Origin: Candidatus Peregrinibacteria bacterium
GTDB taxonomy: Bacteria; Patescibacteriota; Gracilibacteria; UM-FILTER-43-11
Assembly: GCA_030637565.1 (NCBI GenBank)
Contig: DAOWGG010000167.1
Coordinates: 1 to 13,637 of the forward strand
DNA: 13,637 bases
Direction of reading: 5' to 3'
The notes under the pieces are model-generated. The model was not told where the DNA came from. It worked only from the letters and a program-made list of their open reading frames with translations, and ran no database searches. Positions 528 to 5,693 of this stretch are shown here, in pieces; position 1 is the first letter of the stretch, and every line of letters starts with the position of its first letter. Made by a program: the position numbers and the translations under genes.

Positions 528-842
528 ATGAAATCTTGTACGGTTGATGATTTAAAAAAAGCGATTAGTGACCACGATGAGAACGTGCATTTTATTGATG
601 TTCGAAGCGTCGGAGAATTTGAAAAATCTCACATTGAAGGCTTTATCAATATTCCGCTGGGGTCAGATACGAAAGCGTTTGAGAAATTTAAAGGCACCAC
701 CGTCTATCTCATCTGTTTCAGTGGCGGACGAAGCGACATGGCCTGCCAGGCGCTAGATGGAGTGGGCTTTAAAGAGGTGTTGAGCGTAAAAGGAGGGCTT
801 TTGGTTTGGAAGGTGAAAGGGTATCCGGTGGTGGGTGGGTAA
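528..842 (+). CDS. Single-domain rhodanese-like protein
   Basis: This 104-residue protein is one rhodanese domain with nothing added. It opens with a short helix and the strand FIDVRSVGEFEKSHIEGFINIP (residues 22-43), which holds the CH2A-like DVR and the HI-GxxNIP motif of the family. The active-site loop is C63-F-S-G-G-R68, with the catalytic Cys that would carry a persulfide and a terminal Arg. The C-terminal GGLLVWKVKGYPV matches the usual GG-x-x-W-x-x-x-G-x-P ending. Such stand-alone domains are cytoplasmic sulfurtransferases; acceptor and donor cannot be told from sequence. The ATG lies 2 nt after the previous stop and has no Shine-Dalgarno sequence, suggesting translational coupling. 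It converges with aroE across 79 nt in which I see no clear terminator. Confidence 0.9.
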   Translation: MKSCTVDDLKKAISDHDENVHFIDVRSVGEFEKSHIEGFINIPLGSDTKAFEKFKGTTVYLICFSGGRSDMACQALDGVGFKEVLSVKGGLLVWKVKGYPVVGG

Positions 843-921
843 CTCGTTTCTAGCTGAACTTTTCCCCATATGAATACCGACCTAGGTGTTCTATCAGCAA
901 TATTTCGTATAAAAACAGTGA

Positions 922-1746
922 TTACCTCCGCCTCTTCAACTCTTCATAAAGTGCCTCTTCCATCACTTTTACAGGAGCTTCCTGCCCGAAGAAAAGTCGG
1001 AATTGATCCACCGCTTGGTGCAAGAGCATTCGTTCACCGGAAATGGTTTGAGCGCCGGCTTTTTTAGCTTCTTTTAAAAGTTGAGTTTCCAGTGGATTCG
1101 TAATAATATCCATCACCACCGCATGAGAGGGGATTTTATCAGAATGAAGAAGGGATTCTTCGCTATTCGGGAACATCCCAACGGGCGTAGCGTTGATAAT
1201 AATATCGAAATCAGCGGTTTGAATCTTTGAATGATCAATGGCTTCAATTTCAAAGGCTTTCGCAATTTCTTCCGCCTTCTCAAGGGTACGATTATAAATA
1301 TGAACATCGGCTTGAAAGTCCTTCATACTATAGGCGATGGCTCGAGCCGCTCCACCCGCACCCATTATCAATATCTTTTTGCCAATCAAATTCGTTTTTT
1401 CGCGCAGTGCTTGTATCGCTCCTATTGCATCGGTGTTGTAACCAATCAGCTTGTTATCTTCGTTCACCACAGTGTTCACTGAACCCACAATCTTAGCGAG
1501 TGGGTCGTAATGATCCATGTAAGCCATAATATCCAGCTTATAAGGCATGGTGACACTAAATCCTCCAATGTTATTCAGATCGCTTTCATAACAAAAATTA
1601 GCCAGCTCTTCAGGGTCTTTCGGGTCGATATCAAGCAACCGATATTCGGCGTCTAACCCCAAGTGTTTAATAGCCGCATTATGCATAGCAGGGCTGAGTG
1701 ATTGGCGAACCGGATGCCCAACGATTCCGAATGTCTTCATTTTCAT
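922..1746 (-). CDS. aroE: Shikimate dehydrogenase (NADP)
   Basis: AroE reduces 3-dehydroshikimate to shikimate with NADPH in the cytoplasmic shikimate pathway. At 274 residues it has normal family length. The N-terminal substrate domain shows SLSPAMHN (16-23, shikimate-binding serines 16 and 18), SVTMPYK with the catalytic Lys70, N91 in GSVNTV and D106 in GYNTDA. The C-terminal Rossmann domain shows the glycine loop GAGGAAR (129-135) and NRT (152-154), the NADP-specifying motif, then NATPVGM and the closing LLHQAVDQF. The first residue of the common NVTxPxK motif is Ser here, a change I recall in other lineages. Two starts are possible, MKMKTF (1746) or MKTF (1740); neither has a Shine-Dalgarno. 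It follows hisS by 58 nt of heptad-periodic spacer and is probably read from the same transcript. The function call is secure. Confidence 0.96.
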   Translation of the reverse strand: MKMKTFGIVGHPVRQSLSPAMHNAAIKHLGLDAEYRLLDIDPKDPEELANFCYESDLNNIGGFSVTMPYKLDIMAYMDHYDPLAKIVGSVNTVVNEDNKLIGYNTDAIGAIQALREKTNLIGKKILIMGAGGAARAIAYSMKDFQADVHIYNRTLEKAEEIAKAFEIEAIDHSKIQTADFDIIINATPVGMFPNSEESLLHSDKIPSHAVVMDIITNPLETQLLKEAKKAGAQTISGERMLLHQAVDQFRLFFGQEAPVKVMEEALYEELKRRR

Positions 1747-1804: not shown

Positions 1805-3115
1805 TTATTCTTCCCAAAGTGTTCGATTTTTCAACTTCTTCCCTCCCAATTTATCAACCACCATATCCACAATTCCATCAATTGGAACCGTTTCCTGACT
1901 TCCCTTGTCCATATCTCGAAGAATAATGGTACCTTCCTGAACTTCAATTTGACCGAGAATAAGTGAATAATGAGCCTGTAGGCGATCTGCCATTCTCATT
2001 TGGGATTTAATAGAGCCTTTTCCAGCGGATCCAACCGTATTAAGTCCATGTTCACGAAGCTCATTCAAAAGAGAAAGGGATCGTTTTTTAGCGATGTGCC
2101 CAAGTTGAGCAACAAATATCTGAATACGGTCTTTATTAGGTGGGCGAATGCCCGCTTCTTTCATGTATTCAATGGTACGTTCAACTCCAGCAGCATACCC
2201 CATCGCAGGAGTGGGCTGACCACCCATTAATTCAACCAATCCATCATAACGACCTCCGCCTCCAGTGGCGTTTTGGGCACCGTCTTGTTGGCTCCAGAAT
2301 TCAAATACGGTGTGAGTGTAATAGTCGAGTCCACGAACGAGTTGTGGGTTTTCTTCGTAAGGAACTTTGAGTTCATCTAAAAATTCTTTCACAAGCTGAT
2401 AATGCTCTTTGGTTTCCTCACTCATTACATGGTCGAACTTTGGCGCCATTGAAGCTAAAATCTGACAGTCTTCCTCTTTACAGTCCAGAAGTCTTAGGGG
2501 ATTTTTATGAAGTCGTTTTTGACAATCAGCACATAAGCTTCGCTCTTTGCCAGTGTAAAAATTCACCAAATCTTCATGGAATTTTTTACGATCTTCAGGA
2601 CCACCAATAGTGTTGATCTGAAGTTTTAGTCGATCTGCAATGCCAAGATCTTGATTGATCTTGTGGGCGAGGTAAATGATTTGTGCATCCACCGCTGGAT
2701 CTTGCTCTCCAATTACCTCAAATCCCAATTGGTGAAATTGACGATAGCGACCTTTCTGAGGACGACTGTATCGGAAAAAAGGTTCAAAATAGTAAAGTTC
2801 AACAGGCTGTGGCAGTTGGTGCATACCGTGCTGTAAATAAGCTCGTACGGCGCCAGCGGTTCCTTCAGGGCGCAGAGCCATCCGCTTACCGCTTTTGCTC
2901 TCAAAAACAAACATTTCCTTCTCCACAATATCCGTCGCTTCCCCCAAGCTATGAGTAAAAACATCCACATTCTCAAACATGGGCGTGCTGATACGGCGAA
3001 AGCCCGCTTCACGACAGCGATGTCGAACCACCTTTTTTATAAATGAAAAATAAAGGTGATCATCAGGAAGAATGTCGTGAGTGCCTTTCGAACTTTGATA
3101 CTTTGGAGAGCTCAT
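1805..3115 (-). CDS. hisS: Histidyl-tRNA synthetase
   Basis: HisS charges tRNA-His with histidine in the cytoplasm. The 436 residues match the bacterial class II enzyme in full. Visible signatures are KGTHDILP (10-17), the motif 1 region ending in FRRISTPMFE, ALRPEGTAGAVRAY (80-93), motif 2 FRYSRPQKGRYRQF (114-127), the histidine-specific LVRGLDYY (259-266) and a motif 3 region with GGGGRYDGL and GYAAGVERT. The insertion domain carries four Cys (195, 198, 212, 217) in the LCxDC...LDCKxxxC arrangement known from many bacterial HisRS. The C-terminal anticodon-binding domain runs from about residue 330. The ATG at 3115 has no Shine-Dalgarno. No T-box leader was recognised upstream on this strand. 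The upstream gap is AT-rich and also holds the proposed plus-strand RNA. aroE follows 58 nt downstream. Confidence 0.97.
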   Translation of the reverse strand: MSSPKYQSSKGTHDILPDDHLYFSFIKKVVRHRCREAGFRRISTPMFENVDVFTHSLGEATDIVEKEMFVFESKSGKRMALRPEGTAGAVRAYLQHGMHQLPQPVELYYFEPFFRYSRPQKGRYRQFHQLGFEVIGEQDPAVDAQIIYLAHKINQDLGIADRLKLQINTIGGPEDRKKFHEDLVNFYTGKERSLCADCQKRLHKNPLRLLDCKEEDCQILASMAPKFDHVMSEETKEHYQLVKEFLDELKVPYEENPQLVRGLDYYTHTVFEFWSQQDGAQNATGGGGRYDGLVELMGGQPTPAMGYAAGVERTIEYMKEAGIRPPNKDRIQIFVAQLGHIAKKRSLSLLNELREHGLNTVGSAGKGSIKSQMRMADRLQAHYSLILGQIEVQEGTIILRDMDKGSQETVPIDGIVDMVVDKLGGKKLKNRTLWEE

Positions 3116-3186
3116 AGATTGAAAAATTAAGGAAATTAATCACTAACTATTACCATATCATAAAATGTATATGTGTACAACATAAT

Positions 3187-3219
3187 GCATTAGAACTCAT
3201 ATCCTACATTTCAAAATAA
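3187..3219. repeat. Heptad-periodic intergenic repeat, copy C (inverted)
   Basis: The reverse complement of 3194-3206 reads TAGGATATGAGTT, identical to 1774-1786 in copy A, and flanking bases also agree (AAAT-x-TA before, x-T after). Copies A and C therefore flank hisS in opposite orientation. A 13-bp match is not significant in the whole window, but it is unlikely by chance within these few hundred intergenic bases. Confidence 0.4.
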
Positions 3220-3240
3220 GATAGGTGAGCTTGAAAAAGA

Positions 3241-3422
3241 ATGAGTGCACGTAGTACCGACGCTGCTTTGGGTCTTGTACAAAGTTGCGAACCTTGGGCT
3301 TTGCTCAAGGTCCAACTGGGCCCCAAAGTTAGGCGGGACGAAGTTAAGCGAATTTTTTGTAGAGCGAAAACACTTGTTTGGAAAGGCCGAAGACTTTTTG
3401 GAAAAGTTTTCGGTTTATTTTA
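3241..3422 (+). ncRNA. Putative structured non-coding RNA with intrinsic terminator
   Basis: The hisS/peptide-binding gap contains an island with about 50% GC, against about 22% in the 60 bases at 3121-3180. Four hairpins follow one another in plus-strand RNA: 3261-3289 (CGCxGCTTTG against CAAAGTTGCG, one mismatch, one G-U), 3291-3311 (nine pairs closing on TTT, one G-U), 3312-3333 (six pairs around a loop containing GGGCCC) and the terminator stem 3387-3413. CTTTGGG at 3266-3272 could instead pair with CCCAAAG at 3322-3328. In the minus strand the G-U pairs become A-C mismatches, which argues for plus-strand transcription. An open frame at 3241-3450 exists but looks like no protein I know and runs into the end of the neighbouring gene. 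The 5' end is uncertain and I found no convincing promoter. It does not match tmRNA, RNase P, SRP RNA or 6S RNA as I know them. Confidence 0.42.
3387..3422 (+). terminator. Intrinsic terminator of the proposed plus-strand RNA
   Basis: A 12-bp stem, CCGAAGACTTTT (3387-3398) with AAAAGTTTTCGG (3402-3413), closes on a TGG loop with a single G-U pair and is followed by TTTATTTTA. Read on the minus strand it begins 1 nt after the stop of the peptide-binding gene, but there it has an A-C mismatch and is followed by CCTTTCC, a poor U-tract. It may still help end the convergent minus-strand transcript. Confidence 0.6.
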
Positions 3423-4878
3423 CATCCCTCGCCAACACCAACCCATCTAATCGCGGCTCCCAAGCTATCCCTTTTTTAAGGGCGTAAAGCCTTGATGACT
3501 CGAAGAGGGGAATTCCAATAAGATCCTTATCCACTAGTTCCATAATCTGTTGCAGTGTCTGAAGGCGGATTTCGGGATTGAGTTCCTGACGGCTTTTTTC
3601 AATCAGCTTATTCACAAACACATTCTTATAGCGCCCATTATTAAATTCACCTTCGCTATGAATAAAATTATCTAAAAAGTCACCTGCATCTCCATTTTCC
3701 GCCTGCCAGCCAATCACAAAAAGCTGAGATTCATTATTTTTAATACGATCTAAAAGCTCCTCAGGGGGAATCACGTTGTCCTCTACCAAGAAGCCAGCAT
3801 CCAAAAGCTGTTTTTTTACATAATCGGTAAGTGTTCGATAGGTGGCTAAGGAATCAAGGGTAATTTTTTTACGTTGCTCACCAAATAGATTCTTCGCTCG
3901 TTTTTCTTCTGAGAATTCAGGAGCAGATATAGTGGGATTGTACCCAAAAACTCCAGGGGCAATGAATTGGGAAACCTGACGTACAAAGTCGTTGCCAATT
4001 TCTTCAATACGGTCAGGATTAAAAATGGTTTGAATGGCTTCGCGAATCGATCGATCAGCAAGAAGGGAATCATCCAGCTTGAACATCATAAAATTAACCT
4101 CCAAGCTATAACTGGTCTTCACCTGCTCTTGAGGTAGGTTGAGTGCTTGATCACGTGGAACGGCAACGAGAATATCAATTAAATCTTTTTCAAAATCAGT
4201 TTGTCGTTGGTTTTTATTCTTAACAACCGTGTAATTCACATTCTTATAAATAGGCATTCGCCCCCAATAATCCATGTAGGCTGAAAGAGAAAGCTTACTA
4301 CCCTTTTCCCAGATCTCTACACGATAAGGTCCAGTCCCCATTTGCTCCTTGGGAGAAATAAAGAATTTAGTTAATTTTGAAAGAATCAAAGGGTCTGATT
4401 CTTTGGTAATAATTTGAATTGAAAAAGGGTCGATAATTTTAATTTCATCAATAGTGCTCAGTAAGCTTTCCATCTGGCTGCCTCCATTCTTAAGAGCATT
4501 ATCAAAACTACTGACGACACTATCGGCATCAAAAGGGGTTCCATCATGAAAAGTAACGTTTTTGCGAAGTTTGAATTCCCAAATCGTTGGATCTAAATTT
4601 CCCCAAGAAACCGCCAAAGCAGGGGTTATTCTTAGATTTCGGTCAAAACCAACTAGCCCTTCGTAAATATTAGCCGTTCGAATCTGATTATTAAGATTCA
4701 GACTGTGCTGAGAAAGATTGGTCGCAGGGGTATTGAGAACAATCTCAAGAGTGCCACTTTCAAAACGTTGAGGTCCAAGGATTTTATTCGGAAGAGTGGT
4801 AAAGAAAAAACCCTTATTCAAAAAAACAATAAGGGCGGCAAGAATGAGGAACCCGATAAAATAATCTTTTTTTGTCAT
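3415..4878 (-). CDS. Membrane-anchored family 5 extracellular peptide-binding protein
   Basis: This 487-residue protein matches the SBP_bac_5 (OppA/DppA-type) solute-binding family, which captures oligopeptides or similar solutes outside the membrane for an ABC importer. Family landmarks are IYEGLVGFD (71-79), WEFKLRKNVTFHDGTPF (100-116), GTGPYRV (181-187) with a following YWGRMP, and a C-terminal IGIPLFES. Residues 6-20 form one hydrophobic helix after MTKKD. There is no lipobox Cys, so it is probably held by an uncleaved helix or released by signal peptidase rather than lipidated. No permease or ATPase genes accompany it, so its partner must be elsewhere, or it acts as a chaperone or sensor. 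Its promoter is read at 4928-4956, and its leader starts inside a terminator hairpin. The start lacks a Shine-Dalgarno; the hydrophobic N-terminus supports this ATG. Confidence 0.88.
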   Translation of the reverse strand: MTKKDYFIGFLILAALIVFLNKGFFFTTLPNKILGPQRFESGTLEIVLNTPATNLSQHSLNLNNQIRTANIYEGLVGFDRNLRITPALAVSWGNLDPTIWEFKLRKNVTFHDGTPFDADSVVSSFDNALKNGGSQMESLLSTIDEIKIIDPFSIQIITKESDPLILSKLTKFFISPKEQMGTGPYRVEIWEKGSKLSLSAYMDYWGRMPIYKNVNYTVVKNKNQRQTDFEKDLIDILVAVPRDQALNLPQEQVKTSYSLEVNFMMFKLDDSLLADRSIREAIQTIFNPDRIEEIGNDFVRQVSQFIAPGVFGYNPTISAPEFSEEKRAKNLFGEQRKKITLDSLATYRTLTDYVKKQLLDAGFLVEDNVIPPEELLDRIKNNESQLFVIGWQAENGDAGDFLDNFIHSEGEFNNGRYKNVFVNKLIEKSRQELNPEIRLQTLQQIMELVDKDLIGIPLFESSRLYALKKGIAWEPRLDGLVLARDVK

Positions 4879-4958: not shown

Positions 4959-5693
4959 TTAAGCAACAGGTGGAGCTTGAGGTGTCTCAGCTACGACAGG
5001 CTCACTGCTTTCAGCAGGTGCAGGTTCAGCAGGAGCTTCCGCCACAGGTGCTTCAGGAGCAGGTGCAGGTTCAGCAGGAGCTTCCGCCACAGGTGCTTCA
5101 GGAGCAGGTGCAGGTTCAGCAGGTGCTTCCGCTACAGGTGCTTCAGGAGCAGGTGCAGGTTCAGCAGGTGCTTCCGCTACAGGTGCTTCCGCTACAGGTG
5201 CAGGTTCAGCAGGAGCTTCCGCTACAGGTGCTTCAGGAGCAGGTGCAGGTTCAGCAGGAGCTTCCGCTACAGGTGCTTCAGGAGCAGGTGCCGCCGCTGG
5301 CGTTATTGGAGTCGCTGGTGCAGCAGAAACACTATTGCCAAGGGCTAATTTTGCCTCTTCAAGGCTATCATGAATATTAATAATTTGAGTAATTCCTACT
5401 ACTTTTAAAATATCAAGAATATTGGCACGGGGACGAGCGATTACCACTTGCCCTCCTTTTCCTGCAACACGAGAATACCAATCAGTTACATATCCAATTG
5501 ATTTTGAGTTCATATAGGCTAGTTCAGAAAAATCCAAAAGTAGATAAGGGGTTTCGCTCCCATCAATCACTTGATAGATTTTTTTAGCCTCTTCATCCAC
5601 ATTGGTTTCATCCAACTGACCTACAAAGCCGATTACCTTAATAGGTTTTCCGTTTGCGTCTTCGTCCTGAATAGTAATTTGAACTTCTGCCAT
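4959..5693 (-). CDS. STAS-domain anti-anti-sigma factor with Pro/Ala/Glu repeat tail
   Basis: Residues 1 to about 118 form a STAS domain of the SpoIIAA/RsbV type. In that family the unphosphorylated protein binds the cognate anti-sigma kinase and frees the sigma factor. LLLDFSELAYMNSKSIGY (51-68) is the core; Ser63 aligns with the phosphorylated Ser58 of Bacillus SpoIIAA, while the preceding Asp is Asn62. Residues 137-226 are six 15-residue units of the form APEAPVAEAPAEPAP (the third begins VAE), a probably extended, disordered tail that normal STAS antagonists of ~110 residues lack. The tail ends with a non-repeated 18 residues rich in Pro, Glu and Ser. No signal peptide or membrane segment is seen, so the protein should be cytoplasmic. 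The kinase gene lies directly upstream, 68 nt away, and the two probably share a transcript. The ATG has an A-rich leader and no Shine-Dalgarno. Confidence 0.9.
   Translation of the reverse strand: MAEVQITIQDEDANGKPIKVIGFVGQLDETNVDEEAKKIYQVIDGSETPYLLLDFSELAYMNSKSIGYVTDWYSRVAGKGGQVVIARPRANILDILKVVGITQIINIHDSLEEAKLALGNSVSAAPATPITPAAAPAPEAPVAEAPAEPAPAPEAPVAEAPAEPAPVAEAPVAEAPAEPAPAPEAPVAEAPAEPAPAPEAPVAEAPAEPAPAPEAPVAEAPAEPAPAESSEPVVAETPQAPPVA
5016..5285. repeat. Six tandem 45-bp in-frame repeats
   Basis: Six near-identical 45-bp units encode the 15-residue PAE-rich unit of the STAS protein. Units differ by a few synonymous changes (GCTTCCGCC against GCTTCCGCT, GGAGC against GGTGC) and one unit carries a GCTTCCGCTACAGGT variant. 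Near-identity at DNA level suggests recent expansion or homogenisation, and copy number is likely to vary between strains. Confidence 0.93.

Follow-up and report, generated by a model that had tools for sequence, protein, structure and literature searches.

Several folded elements described from bacteria share features with the one analyzed here. The attC sites of integrons are folded, follow closely on a stop codon and lie on the opposite strand from the gene, and the HEARO or omega RNAs of IS605-type elements are dispersed structured RNAs, copies of which occur without a protein gene. REP, ERIC, BOX and related repeats are short, non-coding, repeated and foldable. One survey lists 92 stem-loop repeat families in 40 bacterial genomes, two thirds of which have a common predicted structure, are intergenic and possibly function at the RNA level (PMC2267715). 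According to another report, group IIC introns insert at intrinsic terminators (PMC4424553).

We found an element that recalls each of these in a window of 13,637 nucleotides (the whole stretch of DNA that was analyzed; contig DAOWGG010000167.1) from a Candidatus Peregrinibacteria assembly of 0.96 Mb and 79% completeness. We consider it, with a probability of roughly 0.6, to be a dispersed, non-autonomous, mobile-like and probably transcribed RNA element of the class to which Peregrinibacteria belong, settling at transcript ends. It differs from REP, ERIC and BOX in its two-part fold of ~165 nt, whose pairs covary strongly between families of the class, in its frequent position at convergent 3′ ends, and in that Y1 transposases are unlinked to it here. 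Like group IIC introns, it is an RNA element at transcript ends, but it is only ~165 nt long, is oriented opposite to the gene and has no Rfam intron match, and no reverse transcriptase domain was found in nine of its 12 carriers among 39 relatives. An attC identity was rejected: the element is folded, behind stop codons and on the opposite strand, as attC sites are, but the paired boxes RYYYAAC...GTTRRRY occur in 0 of 102 copies, and it also lies behind tRNA and 5S genes. It shares dispersal, structure and copies without a protein gene with HEARO or omega RNA, yet no Rfam match falls at the element. Among the literature matches listed, no title concerns it; preprints and most subscription papers fell outside that search, and mention within a text is possible.

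The features of the window are:

1805-3115, minus strand: hisS, the divergent 5′ neighbor
3215-3421, plus strand: whole element, from covariance models R1 and R2
3217-3222, plus strand: position of the −10-like hexamer (in this copy TAAGAT, which departs from TATAAT at two bases), 12 to 7 nt 5′ of the first P2 base
3229-3365, plus strand: long interrupted hairpin P2-P5, from covariation and arm swap
3229-3232 with 3362-3365, plus strand: P2
3236-3242 with 3352-3358, plus strand: P3
3245-3246 with 3348-3349, plus strand: P3b
3248-3250 with 3343-3345, plus strand: P3c, without support from the swap test
3254-3259 with 3334-3339, plus strand: P4
3265-3272 with 3322-3329, plus strand: P5
3278-3316, plus strand: insert with its own hairpin in the apical loop, missing from two close copies in the same genome
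3378-3386, plus strand: linker TTGGAAAGG, from the long hairpin to P6
3387-3413, plus strand: P6, a near-palindromic 12-bp hairpin with A/T arms, located where the convergent SBP gene has its 3′ end
3241-3450, plus strand: overlapping open frame, without Pfam match and not conserved as a frame among copies
3415-4878, minus strand: solute-binding protein family 5 gene (SBP_bac_5), convergent

A first-pass annotation of this DNA had proposed an unannotated, plus-strand structured RNA, unlike known RNAs, at 3241-3422. That core claim holds, as do P6, the P5 pairing, the G-U pairs and the open frame; the proposed fold and the start of the range do not, the element beginning further upstream at ~3215-3229. 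The last hairpin does have the 12 bp (3387-3398 with 3402-3413) and U-rich tail assigned to it. In place of four consecutive hairpins, however, P2, P3, the short P3b and P3c, P4 and P5 stack as one long interrupted hairpin, followed by the linker and P6. The local hairpin at ~3278-3316 belongs to an insert of the window copy that the close same-genome copies L009 and L014 lack. CTTTGGG (3266-3272) and CCCAAAG (3322-3328) can indeed pair; since this supposed alternative is P5 of the conserved fold, two exclusive folds are not needed. The first-pass annotation did not recognize that the element occurs in multiple copies, is found where genes end and has the behavior of a mobile element. On its own, the window copy is only mildly unusual (folding z −1.77; 10 of 200 shuffles fold as well or better).

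The fold is maintained by compensatory changes. Among 77 copies in an alignment fitted to the model, two-sided changes occur in 48 of 49 pairs, and 86.6% of cells pair, against 63.6% when shuffled and 35-47% when slid. A structure-free MAFFT alignment of nine copies gave two-sided changes in 23 of 49 pairs and 90.9% paired (31-53% when slid). In an arm swap, arms were exchanged between copies of different genomes and the own partner was compared with the median foreign arm; the own arm was better in 97 of 102 copies for P2+P3, 97 for P4, 95 for P5 and 101 for P6. The MAFFT alignment and the arm swap lean less on the model than the fitted alignment does, and covariation, proposed earlier as the check, is strong in all three. 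P2 to P6 are thus backed by the arm swap, except for P3c (57/102); P1 (58/102), although retained in the models, was discarded as a helix. As read from the alignment, GA/GA and GUA/GAA are frequent among the internal loops and would fit sheared G·A pairs on the plus strand.

The fold is also better on the plus strand, as had been argued from G-U pairs. Such pairs are present in P2, P3, P5 and P6. The strand preference is genuine but weaker than at first sight. The mean folding z is −4.3 on the plus and −3.8 on the minus strand, and the plus strand folds more stably in 98 of 102 copies; the gap of −10.3 kcal/mol already reaches −7.2 in shuffled copies. The gap exceeds that of a copy's own shuffles in 85/102. 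Strand energy by itself, being mostly composition, was therefore set aside as evidence.

Known families and coding potential do not account for the element. In Rfam 15, no family reached the gathering cut-off at the element, whether in the window or in sets of 11 and 20 loci (31 loci), the sole overlap being a tRNA that covers six end bases of the L196 match. A permissive Rfam search with the window copy reached a best E of 0.56, and Rfam with ARAGORN found nothing in the window. The open frame at 3241-3450, listed earlier as a weak point, is present, but a protein-coding gene there was rejected: it has no Pfam match, 44 of 102 copies have no open plus-strand frame over the core, so codon-like conservation is absent, and match lengths differ among copies by non-multiples of three.

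A plain DNA search of 39 relatives matched eight, several copies being present in some. The first covariance model, from nine copies with the structure set by hand, yielded 76 matches in 12 of the 39 genomes, lower bounds because at most 71 candidates were scored per genome. All 12 carriers belong to the 18 genomes of the window's own family, with none among the 21 others, and each has 1 to 24 matches. Two matches were left out of the 76: G000:C40:3105-3180, where the palindromic P6 was matched on its opposite strand, and one on G017:C88. Alignment A2 holds 77 matches, and A3 holds 67, fragments and weak rows having been removed through omitted loci and a lower E limit. The second model, built from 67 copies, found matches in 37 of the 353 class genomes (31 of 208 sampled genera; families f1, f16, f22, f28-f32 and f34) and in 5 of 379 genomes across the phylum, all five within the class; these too are lower bounds because at most eight candidates were scored per genome. 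After removal of two short sequences from 104 matches, 102 full-length copies remained for comparison. A pattern scan recovered 48 stretches, 16 of them from Candidatus Peregrinibacteria or "Patescibacteria group" MAGs, and all 16 match the model. The 32 from outside Patescibacteria fail it at E 0.01 and were rejected, including two Streptomyces loci at E 0.019 and 0.075. The one viral stretch with the pattern fails the model as well. A phage or plasmid origin was likewise dismissed, the window copy having no match in either collection.

P6 faces a convergent gene, frequently at its very 3′ end. In the window, a single nucleotide separates P6 from the SBP stop codon (3415-3417). Counting opposite-strand ORFs of at least 80 codons with a stop within −16 to +12 nt of the P6 edge, we found such a stop in 47 of 102 copies, compared with 154 of 5100 random positions (3.0%) at the same loci. 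A tRNA or tmRNA 3′ end lies at P6 in 18 further copies, a stop is 13-100 nt away in nine, and 27 have neither an ORF stop nor a tRNA near P6. Some of these 27 lie where a 5S rRNA or another RNA ends (5S ends were identified by Rfam at L191 and L194 and by eye at L209 and L211). Among the 47, L085 also has a tRNA at a distance of 6 nt, and this tRNA is the likelier true neighbor. A same-strand tRNA directly follows the element in only 1/102. Ten copies have a stop codon inside P6 at one fixed place; in one of these (L087:1546), the protein ends where its orthologues do. In several copies (L010, L015, L019, L016) a short repeat, approximately TCCCATTCGGCYTTGCTCAGGGYAGGCA, is nested in the P6 loop, and two G012 copies have a GCCTGCCTGCCGGYAGGCAGG-like palindrome at P6.

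Other conserved non-coding stretches were seen beside copies. One, GYGTGTCGTTAGGGCGTC ... CACCTCTGA ... GGCGCCCTTT, lies at ~800-1105 (plus strand) of L056, convergent with the element; it is also adjacent in L090, L042, L185 and L204, is best kept in L056, L090 and L042, and has no Rfam match at gathering score in L056, L090, L042 or L185. Another lies on the P6 side of L034 and L066, in G000 and G002, and finishes in a strong terminator immediately before P6.

Copies are present or absent at orthologous sites. These sites were compared within the common gene order SBP-hisS-aroE. Behind SBP, G000 and G013 carry a copy and seven other genomes read have none; behind hisS, copies are present in G002, G008, G010 and G017 and absent from eight others read. 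No match was found in G015, a member of the genus that includes G008 and G017; half of a P6 stands in its hisS gap, either a scar or a bare target, and at two other sites filled in G017 it has unrelated short repeats. In a tree of 64 own-family copies (model-fitted alignment), copies group by genome, with 24 changes of genome label against ~38 when shuffled and a G002 clade of 14. The hisS-site copies of the four genomes fall in different places and are not sisters, which gene conversion could also produce.

A minority of copies have direct repeats joining both edges. Repeats between left flank and right edge with a score of at least 26 occur in 14 of 102 copies, five of them otherwise explained, and in 2 of 1013 swapped controls; 88 copies do not reach that score. 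The clearest are those of L201 (20 nt, shared with the end of a tRNA-Thr), L097 (21 nt, tRNA-Phe), L192 (13), L049 (24) and L071 (45, imperfect). In L187 and L087 the repeats are located away from the edges; those of L068, L189 and L202 stem from an older P6 beside the copy. By eye, the left flanks of L078, L083, L036 and L063 contain apparent truncated older copies just upstream of full G002 copies. The element-free gaps L239, L240, L241, L164 and L170 contain short AT-rich repeats that differ between genomes.

The copies could instead form a family of trans-acting small RNA genes, spread by duplication and gene conversion and placed at gene ends by a shared terminator, a reading that we regard as unlikely. 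In the own family without G002, 24 of 41 copies have a hexamer within one mismatch of TATAAT at a constant position, 12 nt upstream of P2, with no −35 box; it fits a start (+1) at the first P2 base and may act as a promoter, but it is missing in G002 and in other families. A promoter of the element's own was consequently rejected as a general feature, being confined to the window's family without G002. The apical loop GGTCTYGYGG, kept in 57 of 102 copies, also suits a small RNA. Same-site pairs from one genus are divided: counting two-sided, one-sided and broken pairs in the fitted alignment, L057-L058 gives 8/1/3, in favor of this reading, though L033-L045 gives only 1/1/3. The other same-site comparisons gave 3/0/8 (L040-L044), 11/3/12 (L036-L070) and 11/1/8 (L056-L042). 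The range of 1 to 24 matches per carrier, the six of 18 family genomes that have none (including G015, which shares its genus with two carriers) and the copies with direct repeats argue against a small RNA family.

It is rather improbable that the element is a cis-acting 3′-end structure that is not itself mobile, spread by gene conversion and under selection at every gene end as an insulator or two-way terminator. Such a structure would have the palindromic, A/T-armed P6 and would adjoin stop codons and tRNA ends as closely as the element does, but the conserved long hairpin beside P6 is left unexplained, and G015 manages without any matched copy. In addition, a terminator directly precedes P6 in 16 of the 36 copies whose stop is 13-100 nt away or absent, against 5 of the 66 others and 27 of 400 random draws, by a rough detector and with draws on loci shorter than 400 bases skipped yet kept in the 400. 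The U-tail behind P6 is absent from most copies (by eye), which counts against the preferred reading. A single P6 pattern was seen at 11 sites, spread over four of six genomes; ten of these sites are element copies, which led us to reject P6 as a general terminator.

No mobilizing enzyme was found among the Y1 transposases and reverse transcriptases searched for. Y1_Tnp (a RAYT test) is missing from the carriers G000, G004, G008, G013 and G017, several assemblies being incomplete, and is found in the non-carriers G007, G009, G014 and G016. RVT_1 is present in 9 of 39 genomes and missing in 9 of 12 carriers, where it may lie in an unassembled part or another enzyme family may serve. Neither distribution follows the element, and both links were rejected. 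A single-stranded DNA element whose hairpins serve a transposase or integrase, rather than an RNA, is very improbable: the mobile-like spread, the two hairpins near the edges and a one-strand preference that could equally arise from single-stranded DNA agree with it, but Y1 transposases are unlinked, attC-like boxes are absent, the GA/GA and GUA/GAA internal loops would fit RNA, and IS200/IS605 movement is not known to leave a target duplication.

For the preferred reading, a dispersed and mobile-like RNA element, we infer transcription, termination and a mobilizing enzyme. The element would be transcribed, in its own family perhaps from its −10 box, starting at P2 and ending at P6, and P6 would also end the neighbor's transcript as a two-way terminator. 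New copies would enter transcript ends in trans and duplicate a target stretch; the fold would be maintained as a requirement of copying or of a bound partner, and copies already in place may remain useful as gene ends. A more specific version, which we hold to be quite doubtful, is a bacterial SINE-like retroelement, whose transcribed, non-coding structured RNA would be copied back by a trans-acting enzyme into DNA at the 3′ ends of transcripts. Target duplications would then be of variable length, 13 to ~45 nt, a variability that, at a guess, suits target-primed reverse transcription.

In genomes as small as most of the relatives set (0.7-1.7 Mb), non-coding repeats are expected to be shed. 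Nonetheless, this large folded element is kept or re-placed in 31 of 208 genera, mostly at gene ends. Its covariance model gives an annotation to some gaps between genes of uncultured bacteria that had lacked an explanation, the pairs of filled and empty sites are material for studying its movement, and it offers a testable idea of how some genes end in these bacteria.

Two further observations concern the neighboring genes of the window. A promoter-like pair, TTGTAC ... TATGGT, stands before hisS at ~3140-3205 and recurs in several genera (by eye). At 4959-5693 the window encodes a STAS-domain protein with a long Pro-Ala-Glu repeat tail, and its gene adjoins one with an ATPase domain of the anti-sigma type.
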